A stretch of 42,229 bases of DNA from Pseudoselenomonas ruminantium. Its GTDB lineage: Bacteria > Bacillota > Negativicutes > Selenomonadales > Selenomonadaceae. A program made the position numbers and the translations under genes. Numbering within the stretch: position 1 is the first letter of the stretch; the number at the start of each line of letters is the position of its first letter. Where the stretch lies: NCBI RefSeq assembly GCF_900104055.1, contig NZ_FNJQ01000029.1, positions 1 through 42,229 of the forward strand. The letters run 5' to 3'. Below the pieces are notes generated by a model. The model ran no database searches, was not told the DNA's origin, and saw nothing but the letters and a program-made list of their open reading frames with translations. Shown here in pieces: positions 2,700 to 4,829 of this stretch.

Positions 2700-3055
2700 T
2701 CCTTCAATTGGAAGAAGGTTCTCCAGCTACTGGCCGTTTGGGTAACGGCTGCTCTAAGGAAGCTTATCTGCAAGAACAGGGTCACTGTGCTTGTCTTCGA
2801 TGATTCAGTGCTGCGGCGCTGTTATAATGGGCACTTGTACACTTTGCCACAGCTGACAAAAATCACCATGAACAAGAGCAATGACCGCCTGTACCGTTCC
2901 CTCATGATAAGGACAAGGAAGCATCATCTTCCTGTTCGCATTGTCTTTGTCAGGAACCGCAGCATAAAGAGCGGGATGCTGTATATTCTGTCTACGGACG
3001 CACGCTATACATTTATCGAATGGATGCACCGTCAGGAAAACGCCCCCCAAAACAG
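2700..3055 (+). pseudogene. Decayed IS4-like transposase fragment
   Basis: One frame through this otherwise non-coding stretch gives pieces that look like an IS4-type DDE transposase: NWKKVLQLLA, then KNRVTVLVFDDSVLRR (resembling the block with the first catalytic Asp), and later LPVRIVFVRNRSIKSG and LYILSTD (as in the LP(V)KIVFVR...LSTD block). The region between the blocks is missing and no intact start or inverted repeats are visible. It lies just upstream of the HNH/DGQHR island and suggests past mobile-element activity there. Assignment is by recalled motif similarity only. The rest of 2516-2699 shows nothing recognisable. Confidence 0.5.
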
Positions 3056-3092
3056 ATTATTGTATTTAGATCTAAATGCAATAATCTGTTTT
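3049..3092. repeat. 44-bp near-perfect palindrome containing the first operator-like core
   Basis: The arms AAAACAGATTATTG and CAATAATCTGTTTT enclose the ATTTAGATCTAAAT core, with one mismatched pair (3063/3078). A run of T follows. It could be a terminator for transcription entering from the IS remnant, a cruciform, or a high-affinity binding site. It directly precedes the island promoter. Confidence 0.75.
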
Positions 3093-3132
3093 TTAGATCT
3101 AAATACATAAGACTTGACATTTAGATCTAAAT
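3064..3132. promoter_or_regulatory. Three-copy palindromic operator array, ATTTAGATCTAAAT
   Basis: Perfect 14-bp palindromes lie at 3064-3077 and 3119-3132, and a copy with one changed end base at 3092-3105 (12-bp perfect core TTTAGATCTAAA). Centres are 27 and 28 bp apart. The last copy starts at the final base of the putative -35 box and fills most of the spacer, so a bound protein should block RNA polymerase. The arrangement suggests cooperative autorepression of the downstream two genes. The binding protein is not identified; the DGQHR protein is a candidate because its relative DndB is a known repressor of the dnd operon. Confidence 0.75.
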
Positions 3133-3142
3133 ATGATAATAT
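3114..3142 (+). promoter_or_regulatory. Promoter of the HNH-DGQHR operon
   Basis: A perfect -35 hexamer TTGACA (3114-3119) is followed after 17 bp by TAATAT (3137-3142); GATAAT at 3135 is an alternative -10. The spacer contains the third ATTTAGATCTAAAT palindrome. Transcription would begin close to 3149, leaving a short leader before the GTG start at 3167. Confidence 0.65.
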
Positions 3143-3166
3143 ACTATGCAACGGGAGGTGAAAAGT

Positions 3167-3649
3167 GTGATAAATGATATTGAGGCGTTGGACTCAGCTG
3201 TTGCCGAAGCATTTTTGTTGGGGAAGTTTAAAATATTCTGTAATAGAAACGCAACACCGGAAAGTAAAAATCGATTACGCCGCATCTTCGATAAAAGCAA
3301 TGATATCGGGCAGACTATTGAAAACATCTTCAGAATTGAATTAAATACTACATTATCAGAAGTGCAGATAAAAAGAATGATACTTTTAGTGAAGGCGCAT
3401 CTTAATAAAAAAAGCTACCGAAGGCCAATCAGCAAAGAATACAGACATTTTTTATTGGAACAGCAGTTTCACAGATGTAAATTATGCACGAACATAATTG
3501 ATGAAAGCGCTCATGCCGATCACATCGTCCCATTCAAGTATGTTGGTGATGAATTAGAAAATAACTTGCAACTTCTGTGCGGCCCCTGTAATGAAGCGAA
3601 GAATGAGAATATTGATTATCAAATTAGAAAATTTTTGGATTTGATTTAA
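3167..3649 (+). CDS. HNH endonuclease-domain protein, first gene of AT-rich island
   Basis: The 160-residue protein ends in a zinc-finger HNH nuclease domain: CKLC (residues 104-107), the catalytic-type DHIVPF (D118-H119), N132/N133, then LLCGPCNEAKN with C138, C141, N142 and K145. The first 100 residues are charged, helical and unrecognised. GTG at 3167 is chosen as start because GGGAGGTG lies six bases upstream; the in-frame ATG at 3146 falls within the promoter and initiation region. The gene is 18 bases before the DGQHR gene, so they are co-transcribed. HNH domains occur in restriction, homing and defence enzymes; a DNA-cutting role is inferred. Base composition is much more AT-rich than the flanking genes, which fits horizontal transfer. 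Confidence 0.85.
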   Translation: MINDIEALDSAVAEAFLLGKFKIFCNRNATPESKNRLRRIFDKSNDIGQTIENIFRIELNTTLSEVQIKRMILLVKAHLNKKSYRRPISKEYRHFLLEQQFHRCKLCTNIIDESAHADHIVPFKYVGDELENNLQLLCGPCNEAKNENIDYQIRKFLDLI

Positions 3650-3667
3650 GAAAGAAGAGTGATTCAT

Positions 3668-4762
3668 ATGAGAGAAATGTATTTGCTGGAAGTAATTCAA
3701 CATGATGTAAAAAGTTACGTAGGTTTTTTCCCTGCAAGAGAATTGGTAAAGTTGGCTACGAAAGCAGAGCTGCAGGAACCCCAGGAAGCGCAAAGACCTA
3801 TAAATCAGAAACGTCTGGAAGAAATTTCGGATTTCGTTGCAGACAAAGGCATCTTGTCTACATCGATAGTAATTGGGACAAAGGATGATAGACTATCTGT
3901 AAAACCAGTGTCTGACAAAATACCATATCTATATAAAATAGAATTTCCTGAAAGTGAAAATGAATTTGATGACTACAAAGACTCATTCGATATTATGGAT
4001 GGTCAGCATCGTTTGTTTTCCTTTTTACCAGAATATATAAAGATAAGTGATAGTGTGCCGTTTGATATACCATTTGTAGTTTATATAAAACCAACATTAA
4101 AAGAAAGAAGAATTATCTTTAAAAATACGAATGAAAAGCAAGAAAGTGTAGCATCTAATTTGCTAATGTGGTTTAGAGAAAAGCTGAATATGTTGAGTGG
4201 GAAGGAAAAGACATACCATTCTGTGGTATCCTCGCTAAGCTGCGAAGCACGTTCTCCACTAAAAGGAAGAATAATAATGGGGGCTGAGAAGATTACAGGT
4301 GGTTTTAAAGCACAGCAGGTCATAACTATTTTGGATAAAGCAGACATAAAAGATGTTGATAAAAAACCTTTAGATAATGACCAAATGTTTAAGCTTATCA
4401 CAAATTATTTGCTGGGATGGGAAAAAGCGGTAGGATCTAAATTTTGTGACAGAGACAAAGCTTTTGGCGCATTTTCCAAGATTTCTGGTTTTCGATTTAT
4501 GATTTCAATGCTTCCGGAATTCTACAATCAGGCAAAAACTGATAAAAGAAAGATTGATTGTTCTTATGTTGTTGAAAAGCTAGAAGAGCTTTTTGCAACT
4601 TATGGTATGGTAGCTAGTGATTTGTTTGTTAAAGATAGTCAATATATGACTAAACTTGGTTCGAACCCTTTCTCTGCGGAAACACCAACTACCTTATTGG
4701 CCAAAGAGTGGATTAATAATCTTAAAGCTCTAAAAGGGGGGGAGTTTGATCCGCTAGCTTAA
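3668..4762 (+). CDS. DGQHR-domain protein, DndB-like
   Basis: The 364-residue protein carries the family-defining DGQHR motif (D111-R115, context FDIMDGQHRLFSF) and the downstream block FKNTNEKQESVASNLL, as in DndB and related DGQHR proteins. An N-terminal PINQKRLEEISDFV segment is also typical. DndB represses operons for DNA phosphorothioation; other DGQHR proteins occur in DNA-modification and defence clusters, mostly without known activity. ATG 3668 is preferred over GTG 3659 because the GAAGAG ribosome site lies eight bases before it. No dndC/D/E or deazaguanine-insertion genes lie nearby, so the pair with the HNH gene appears self-contained. The role (repressor, sensor of modified DNA, or nuclease partner) is open. 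Confidence 0.85.
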   Translation: MREMYLLEVIQHDVKSYVGFFPARELVKLATKAELQEPQEAQRPINQKRLEEISDFVADKGILSTSIVIGTKDDRLSVKPVSDKIPYLYKIEFPESENEFDDYKDSFDIMDGQHRLFSFLPEYIKISDSVPFDIPFVVYIKPTLKERRIIFKNTNEKQESVASNLLMWFREKLNMLSGKEKTYHSVVSSLSCEARSPLKGRIIMGAEKITGGFKAQQVITILDKADIKDVDKKPLDNDQMFKLITNYLLGWEKAVGSKFCDRDKAFGAFSKISGFRFMISMLPEFYNQAKTDKRKIDCSYVVEKLEELFATYGMVASDLFVKDSQYMTKLGSNPFSAETPTTLLAKEWINNLKALKGGEFDPLA

Positions 4763-4795
4763 GTAATACGATTATAAATGTAAATAACGCAACTA

Positions 4796-4829
4796 AAGAA
4801 GAGCCGCACATTAGGTGTGGCTCTTCTTC
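4796..4829. terminator. Bidirectional terminator between the island and the acetyltransferase gene
   Basis: The arms AAGAAGAGCCGCAC and GTGTGGCTCTTCTT pair through a five-base loop, allowing one G-U pair. It sits between convergent genes. Neither side has a long T-run, so termination may be moderate. Confidence 0.7.

Follow-up and report, generated by a model that had tools for sequence, protein, structure and literature searches.

Why should a gene for a DGQHR protein of the DndB family lie directly beside a gene for an HNH nuclease? The question is raised by contig NZ_FNJQ01000029.1 of Pseudoselenomonas ruminantium (assembly GCF_900104055.1), whose whole stretch of 42,229 nucleotides is called the window here, and in which an initial annotation had described an HNH-DGQHR pair at positions 3049-4829. 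We confirm this observation. The element is an AT-rich operon of two genes on the plus strand with 18 nt between them: the HNH gene (3167-3649, GTG start, 160 amino acids), preceded by GGGAGG at 3153-3158 as read by eye, and the DGQHR gene (3668-4762, ATG start, 364 amino acids). The guanine-cytosine (GC) content is 34-36% in composition windows from 3001 to 4750 against 41-59% on the flanks, and the promoter carries the palindrome TTTAGATCTAAA in three exact copies, so that the earlier picture of an AT-rich pair behind a three-operator promoter among GC-richer neighbours holds. Given the conserved pairing, conserved operator, intact motifs and predicted folds computed here, we lean, if only slightly, towards regarding the pair as a two-gene, autorepressed sensor-effector module whose role is most likely anti-phage.

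A motif scan of an 84,980-genome collection gave at least 117 stretches, all 117 of which served as the control set, and pairing was scored in these listed loci with DGQHR and HNH profiles built from the members of the subfamily. Eight of the loci encode full-length members (423-503 bits), and all eight are adjoined by a same-strand HNH gene of one family; none of the 88 other listed loci, which have weaker DGQHR matches, carries such a gene within 1000 nt, a count that other kinds of HNH gene could escape because the profile was built from members. Twenty of the 117 have no DGQHR match, and 27 of the 89 “other” rows (including a frame from an archaeon) end within 400 nt of the border of their locus, so that a partner gene might be missed. 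The HNH match of Bacillus sp. BA3 ends at the border of its control-set locus and is complete in a separate analysis; L002, L004, L005, L011, L013 and L105 all represent a single Mitsuokella locus and were counted once, and L001, L006 and L010 are the locus of the window. With the window and two further genomes, G1104 and G819, the full-length subfamily comes to 11 members, in ten of which the partner is a co-directional HNH gene and in one, G819, a TIR gene. The HNH-DGQHR pair is a real unit and, since pair and operator recur in other genomes, more than chance; the proposal that it is conserved and self-contained is thereby borne out. Some observations weaken the clean contrast. Looser regular-expression passes also matched in the non-member loci L074, L089, L096 and L100, where inspection by eye spoke against HNH genes, and L059 has a weak HNH match (3e-4) more than 1000 nt from its DGQHR frame. 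Separately, at a locus in the phylum sample (L015, 1267-3537) a dnd-type DGQHR gene has as its neighbour an HNH gene of 339 amino acids in divergent orientation. The archaeal frame (L143, 5709-6647, from a Thermoplasmata archaeon) is a truncated subfamily frame of 170.6 bits and was not counted as full-length; that genome gave no HNH match.

The trees of the two proteins are in agreement. The HNH gene comes first in seven members and the DGQHR gene first, before either partner, in four, and these orders coincide with a 4|7 split in the DGQHR tree (support 100/100). Both trees support the clades window/SIG274/Butyrivibrio and RGIG6850/Lapin-008, the grouping of Mitsuokella, BA3 and Coatesbacteria has only moderate support (86/87 and 81/90), and RUG11153/G1104 is supported in the DGQHR tree and unresolved in the HNH tree; no supported branches conflict. 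Terminal branches are longer for HNH (median 1.2 versus 0.6 for DGQHR).

Beyond the control set, a general DGQHR model matches 16 of 398 genomes of the window’s own phylum, in which this subfamily is represented by the window’s copy and one other only, a full-length relative (33%) from the same family with HNH adjoining in the opposite order. The 397 genomes searched from the Butyrivibrio member’s family gave 12 matches, of which three, namely Butyrivibrio, G1104 (HNH) and G819 (TIR), are full-length, the nine weak ones (75 bits or less) being dropped; 150 genomes of the family of RUG11153 gave that member only, and 21 genomes of the window’s genus gave no member. Two further candidates were dropped: G597 (2e-4 in the own-family search), whose frame reads as lying among CRISPR Csm-like genes, and G077 (7.7e-4, 25%), a weak partial match in the own phylum that belongs to another DGQHR kind. 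The TIR gene of G819 is ThsB-like and lies 40 nt downstream of the DGQHR gene (L180/L167, 1862-2308), where HNH would be, and that genome has a partial HNH-domain match only, on another contig.

How the operon may be controlled is suggested by its promoter. A promoter-like site at 3114-3142 on the plus strand consists of TTGACA (3114-3119), a 17-nt spacer and a TAATAT -10 box (3137-3142) preceded by TG, 10 of 12 positions matching; it is among the two best-scoring such sites in the window and the sole one of those two with TG, and the eight sites found in all are no excess over the 7.2 of shuffled sequence. Three putative operators, each an exact palindrome TTTAGATCTAAA, lie at 3065-3076, 3092-3103 and, within the promoter spacer, 3120-3131, at spacings of 27 and 28 nt. 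The genome of 3,211,419 bases contains three exact copies, all at this promoter, which makes a general host regulator unlikely. With one mismatch allowed the genome has four sites against five for a reversed control pattern, so that it is the location and exactness of the copies that count; with two mismatches the window has four against 1.38 expected, a number reached by 6 of 100 shuffles and hence not rare.

The same operator recurs in relatives. Its core, TTAGATCTAA, occurs exactly within 150 nt upstream in six of the ten members with upstream sequence, Coatesbacteria having been left out of the count because of a contig end: three copies in the window, two in SIG274 and one each in Butyrivibrio, RUG11153, G1104 and G819. 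Elsewhere in 181,803 bases of member loci there is no exact copy. A first-order model gives 5e-4 per promoter, and the resulting binomial value of 4e-18 overstates the significance because the members are related and were treated as independent; G819 and RUG11153, which both have the core, are nevertheless far from the clade of the window. At a tolerance of two mismatches there are also zero to six matches to the 12-mer per locus away from the promoter. By eye, a palindrome copy directly follows the -35 box in the window, SIG274, Butyrivibrio and (imperfectly) RUG11153, and in G1104 and G819 the -35 box is preceded by an exact copy. As the palindrome also precedes the DGQHR-TIR operon of G819, which has no adjoining HNH gene, it is the DGQHR protein that should be the binder common to these operons. 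Its natural role as binder of these palindromes, and thus as autorepressor, is what we infer by analogy with DndB of Salmonella, an autorepressor acting at two palindromes (PMC4507180). The idea that a toxic activity is kept silent until needed gains support, as regards the silence, from an operator core shared by six of ten members and found in its exact form nowhere else in the window’s genome; the toxicity itself is presumed.

Both proteins are recognisable from their families and predicted folds. The HNH protein matches PF01844 with 32.4 bits (cut-off 21.4) and PF14279 with 32.1 bits (cut-off 27.5), and has a helical N-terminal part (about 1-85) followed, at about 87-160, by a ββα-metal HNH domain in which four cysteines are conserved. 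The motifs CxxC, HxDH, GDE, LC and CNxxK, which include these cysteines, are kept in 9/9 rows of the alignment and the middle asparagine in 8/9, and the tenth HNH protein, of G1104, reads like the nine; the nuclease motif is therefore conserved. Its AlphaFold2 model (alignment of 8 rows) has a mean predicted local distance difference test (pLDDT) score of 92.0, and residues 87-160, on which the structural comparison bears, resemble HNH domains of Cas9, McrA, Cap5 and effector chains of retron Ec78 (Z 5.5-7.4); a sequence search of the PDB gave matches mostly confined to the HNH domain. The DGQHR protein matches PF14072 (DndB) with 42.8 bits (cut-off 29.1) and TIGR03187 (DGQHR) with 75.9 bits (cut-off 58.85); the motifs DGQHR and FxxxN are present in all 11 alignment rows and QRP in 10. 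Its model (alignment of 9 rows, mean pLDDT 83.9) combines a ParB/Srx-type fold at about 8-160 with a helical domain at about 178-358. The former resembles ParB/Srx proteins, with PadC at Z 7.9 over 100 residues and 2.9 Å, and ParB, Noc and the repressor KorB at Z 5.6-6.8; it also resembles SspE (Z 3.8, 119 residues, 4.8 Å). Residues 179-358 resemble BrxU at Z 4.7 (129 residues, 4.0 Å), which is little above the Z 3.0-3.4 of unrelated rows. Such structural matches alone are no proof of kinship, but they agree with the sequence families. A PDB sequence search with the DGQHR profile gave no match up to E 1.

Is the pair then a piece of something already known? With DndB (PF14072, TIGR03233) it shares the broad family, palindromes at its own promoter and a predicted ParB-type fold. 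The DGQHR protein nevertheless reaches only 24.3 bits against the TIGR03233 equivalog cut-off of 328, the Salmonella operator TACGN10CGTA (PMC4507180) differs from TTTAGATCTAAA, and its partner here, unlike in dnd systems, is a nuclease gene. Moreover, dndC was not found above cut-off in any of the 11 member genomes, some of which are incomplete (the window’s own is 99.98% complete and has one dndC match of 19.4 bits against a cut-off of 290.4), and on this ground a fragment of a dnd locus was set aside. For deazaguanine systems the protein scores 22.4 bits against 300 for DpdB (NF041060), no genome-wide search for dpd genes having been made. The initial annotation had named three outcomes that would count against it, namely homologs not adjacent elsewhere, a nuclease motif not conserved, and fragments of a known dnd or dpd locus; since pairing and motif are both conserved, the first two fall away, and the third finds no support as regards dnd, the dpd part resting on the DpdB score. 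No PADLOC model fits the pair, which shows domain-level matches only and was not assigned to any known system in that database. The HNH domain is similar in sequence or predicted fold to the effectors of Septu (PtuB, a match at domain level only, 6.4e-5) and CBASS (Cap5), but its partner is a DGQHR protein and neither a PtuA ATPase nor a cyclase. Likewise the TIR protein of G819 matches the PADLOC ThsB1 model of Thoeris at 1e-52, yet its gene adjoins a DGQHR gene, and no ThsA was recognised among the reading frames of its 4,613-base contig. ParB-CTPase repressors such as KorB share the predicted fold of the N-terminal domain, palindromic DNA sites and, by our proposal, a repressor role; they differ in that the protein described here has the DGQHR motif, another helical domain and a nuclease partner, and nothing suggests a partition role.

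The nearest relatives in design are the enzymes GmrSD, BrxU, SspE and DndI, which combine a ParB/Srx NTPase bearing a DGQxR motif with an HNH nuclease, a combination that motifs and predicted folds indicate here too, including a predicted helical domain weakly like that of BrxU. Motifs of the QRP, DGQHR and FxxxN types have been noted as common to DGQHR proteins and GmrS (PMC4619093), and this likeness between DGQHR and DUF262 makes the pair a look-alike of the GmrSD/SspE enzymes. Unlike the GmrSD family, it is encoded by a pair of genes that belong to other Pfam families (PF14072; PF01844/PF14279) and have a conserved promoter palindrome, and neither protein matches DUF262 (PF03235) or DUF1524 (PF07510) up to E 0.1. 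The pair appears in no title or abstract among the open-licence literature matches listed; among the nearest statements are that ParB-CTPase folds occur fused to HNH domains (PMC12704722) and that ParB-HNH GmrSD enzymes occur in BREX loci (PMC12839542). By analogy, it may act like GmrSD/SspE with a DndB-style autorepression added, while being a member of neither group by the tests made. The likeness to DUF262, the conservation of the operator across families and the TIR gene that replaces HNH in one member go beyond what had been annotated.

As a mechanism we suggest that the DGQHR protein, a ParB/Srx-fold NTPase of the DndB family, would bind TTTAGATCTAAA at its own promoter and hold the operon almost silent, and that it would also contact and gate the HNH protein. 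Invading DNA or a disturbed nucleotide pool would change its nucleoside triphosphate (NTP)-bound state; one DndB-like protein does bind ATP and GTP (PMC12704722). The DGQHR protein would then leave the operators, more of both proteins would be made, and the HNH protein, released or activated, would nick or cut DNA and halt the infection, perhaps at the cell’s expense.

Several results weigh against this autorepressed module or against its defensive role. The palindrome is absent from four of the ten promoters: that of RGIG6850 (L156, upstream of 9771, minus strand) has TTACATGTAA twice, with a CATG core in place of GATC, those of Lapin-008 and BA3 have nothing resembling it, and Mitsuokella lacks it and has, by eye, an apparent transposase remnant upstream. 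The profile scan listed a helix-turn-helix for neither protein, so that DNA binding rests on analogy; Foldseek searches of the PDB with either model gave no match at E 0.001 or better, and all structural Z values are below 8, that for BrxU being, as mentioned, little above unrelated rows. The TIR swap has been seen once, on the 4,613-base contig, the window’s family has 2 accepted members in 189 genomes, which is rare, the close flanks of the pair in the window (aldolase, TetR, GNAT) are not a defence island, and no defence genes were recognised by their reading frames beside the pair of Lapin-008.

The main rival, possible though doubtful, is a type IV restriction enzyme split over two genes, in which one GmrS/GmrD-like complex senses modified phage DNA through its DGQHR part and cuts it with HNH, leaving the cell unharmed. 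GmrS (DUF262, with DGQQR) is reported to be DGQHR-like and GmrD to have an HNH motif (PMC4619093), NTP hydrolysis is coupled to nicking in DndI and SspE (PMC11662687), and both the predicted resemblances to BrxU and SspE and the agreement of the HNH and DGQHR trees suit such a complex. The failure to match DUF262 or DUF1524 does not, nor does the member in which TIR replaces the nuclease gene, and three operators would seem needless for a constitutive restriction enzyme. A silenced toxic effector is favoured over the split enzyme because of the conserved operator and the TIR case, the latter thin as one case on a small contig.

An addiction pair of mobile elements, with HNH as toxin and DGQHR as autorepressing antitoxin serving maintenance of the element over defence, is unlikely, even if a two-gene operon under operator control is what it would predict. 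A relaxase gene lies near the Butyrivibrio copy, the Mitsuokella contig has frames reading by eye as ParA and a plasmid-type primase, and transposase remnants, the Mitsuokella one being apparent by eye, abut that copy and the one in the window. Against this, a large DGQHR protein with conserved NTPase-type motifs is more than a plain antitoxin needs, and the mobile gene pool offers little: single members used as tblastn queries had no match in 50,697 phage records, scans of viral contigs confirmed no close relative, and 72,556 plasmid records gave only distant partial DGQHR matches of 23-29% identity (4 records in one search, 8 in another), other plasmid searches with single members giving no match. 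A reversed division of labour, with DGQHR as the effector that degrades nucleotides or nicks DNA and HNH as accessory, is very improbable; ParB proteins of conflict systems have been proposed as nucleotide degraders or nucleases (PMC10853773). In this subfamily, however, a toxic chemistry is recognised in the partner, which can be exchanged (HNH or TIR). Homing enzymes commonly carry HNH domains and many phage proteins have HNH-domain look-alikes, but a selfish homing endonuclease lying by chance beside a DndB-like regulator, with no joint function, is scarcely credible and was set aside as largely refuted by the pairing counts, given adjacency in both orders (10/11 members versus 0/88) and agreeing trees.

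The surroundings of the preferred sensor-effector module were annotated from selected open reading frames only, compared with Pfam or PADLOC. Defence-type neighbours occur in five of the seven other members with at least 14 kb of sequence, the seven including G1104, whose wider stretch is unread. SIG274 has Vsr, a C5 methylase and a MutH/type II restriction endonuclease gene (type II restriction-modification); RGIG6850 has TIR, caspase and ThsB-like genes and DUF4062; Butyrivibrio has a relaxase, PDC-M33, an HKD-SNF2 helicase and an IIG-like enzyme; BA3 has a PbeA-like PLD-SNF2 helicase, a KAP NTPase and another HNH; and Mitsuokella has a PLD-type NgoFVII-like gene. The DUF4062 frame of RGIG6850, a rumen isolate, shares 13 nt with the DGQHR frame at the latter’s 3' end (L058, 2234-3169) and may be a third component. 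Upstream of the pair in BA3 (L153, 1163-7486) is a run of three genes, for an 821-amino-acid protein containing Sigma70_r4, a DGNRR ParB-like protein and the PLD-SNF2 helicase, which is possibly another undescribed defence operon.

In the window the module is bordered on both sides. Upstream and outside it, a plus-strand frame at 2790-3110 is a remnant of an IS4-type transposase, whose residues 11-76 (about 2820-3017) match positions 248-316 of the 449 of NF049925 (1.8e-7, 30.2 bits, cut-off 250); by its sequence the remnant seems genuine though short, so that the dead transposase of the initial annotation is real but small. Next comes a near-perfect (95%) inverted repeat of 44 nt followed by a T-run (3049-3092, plus strand), a terminator-like hairpin with the first operator at its apex (-21.6 kcal/mol, z -10.6), which may insulate the operon from the remnant. 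Downstream, the terminator expected after the pair is found as a terminator-like hairpin at 4796-4828 on the plus strand (-24.6 kcal/mol, z -6.8), for which a simple terminator scan listed just an overlapping minus-strand site.

A wider and more speculative idea, which we hold to be rather improbable, is that the DndB-family protein is a general immune switch with exchangeable effectors, silencing itself at GATC-cored palindromes and possibly reading modification of the operator DNA. One ParB/Srx-fold NTPase would then arm an HNH DNase, a TIR NADase and perhaps DUF4062. As the four-base core of the operator, GATC or in one member CATG, can be methylated, the switch may sense modification at its own operator; if true, this would tie the release of the effector to host DNA marks being lost or altered in the course of infection. 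The known role of DndB is to repress phosphorothioation operons, and the module is a minimal case, with two genes and one operator, that ties a DGQHR protein to a nuclease without dnd genes. It makes testable what DGQHR proteins sense, and whether their likeness to the sensors of GmrSD and SspE means the same NTP-gated control of a nuclease, exerted in trans.

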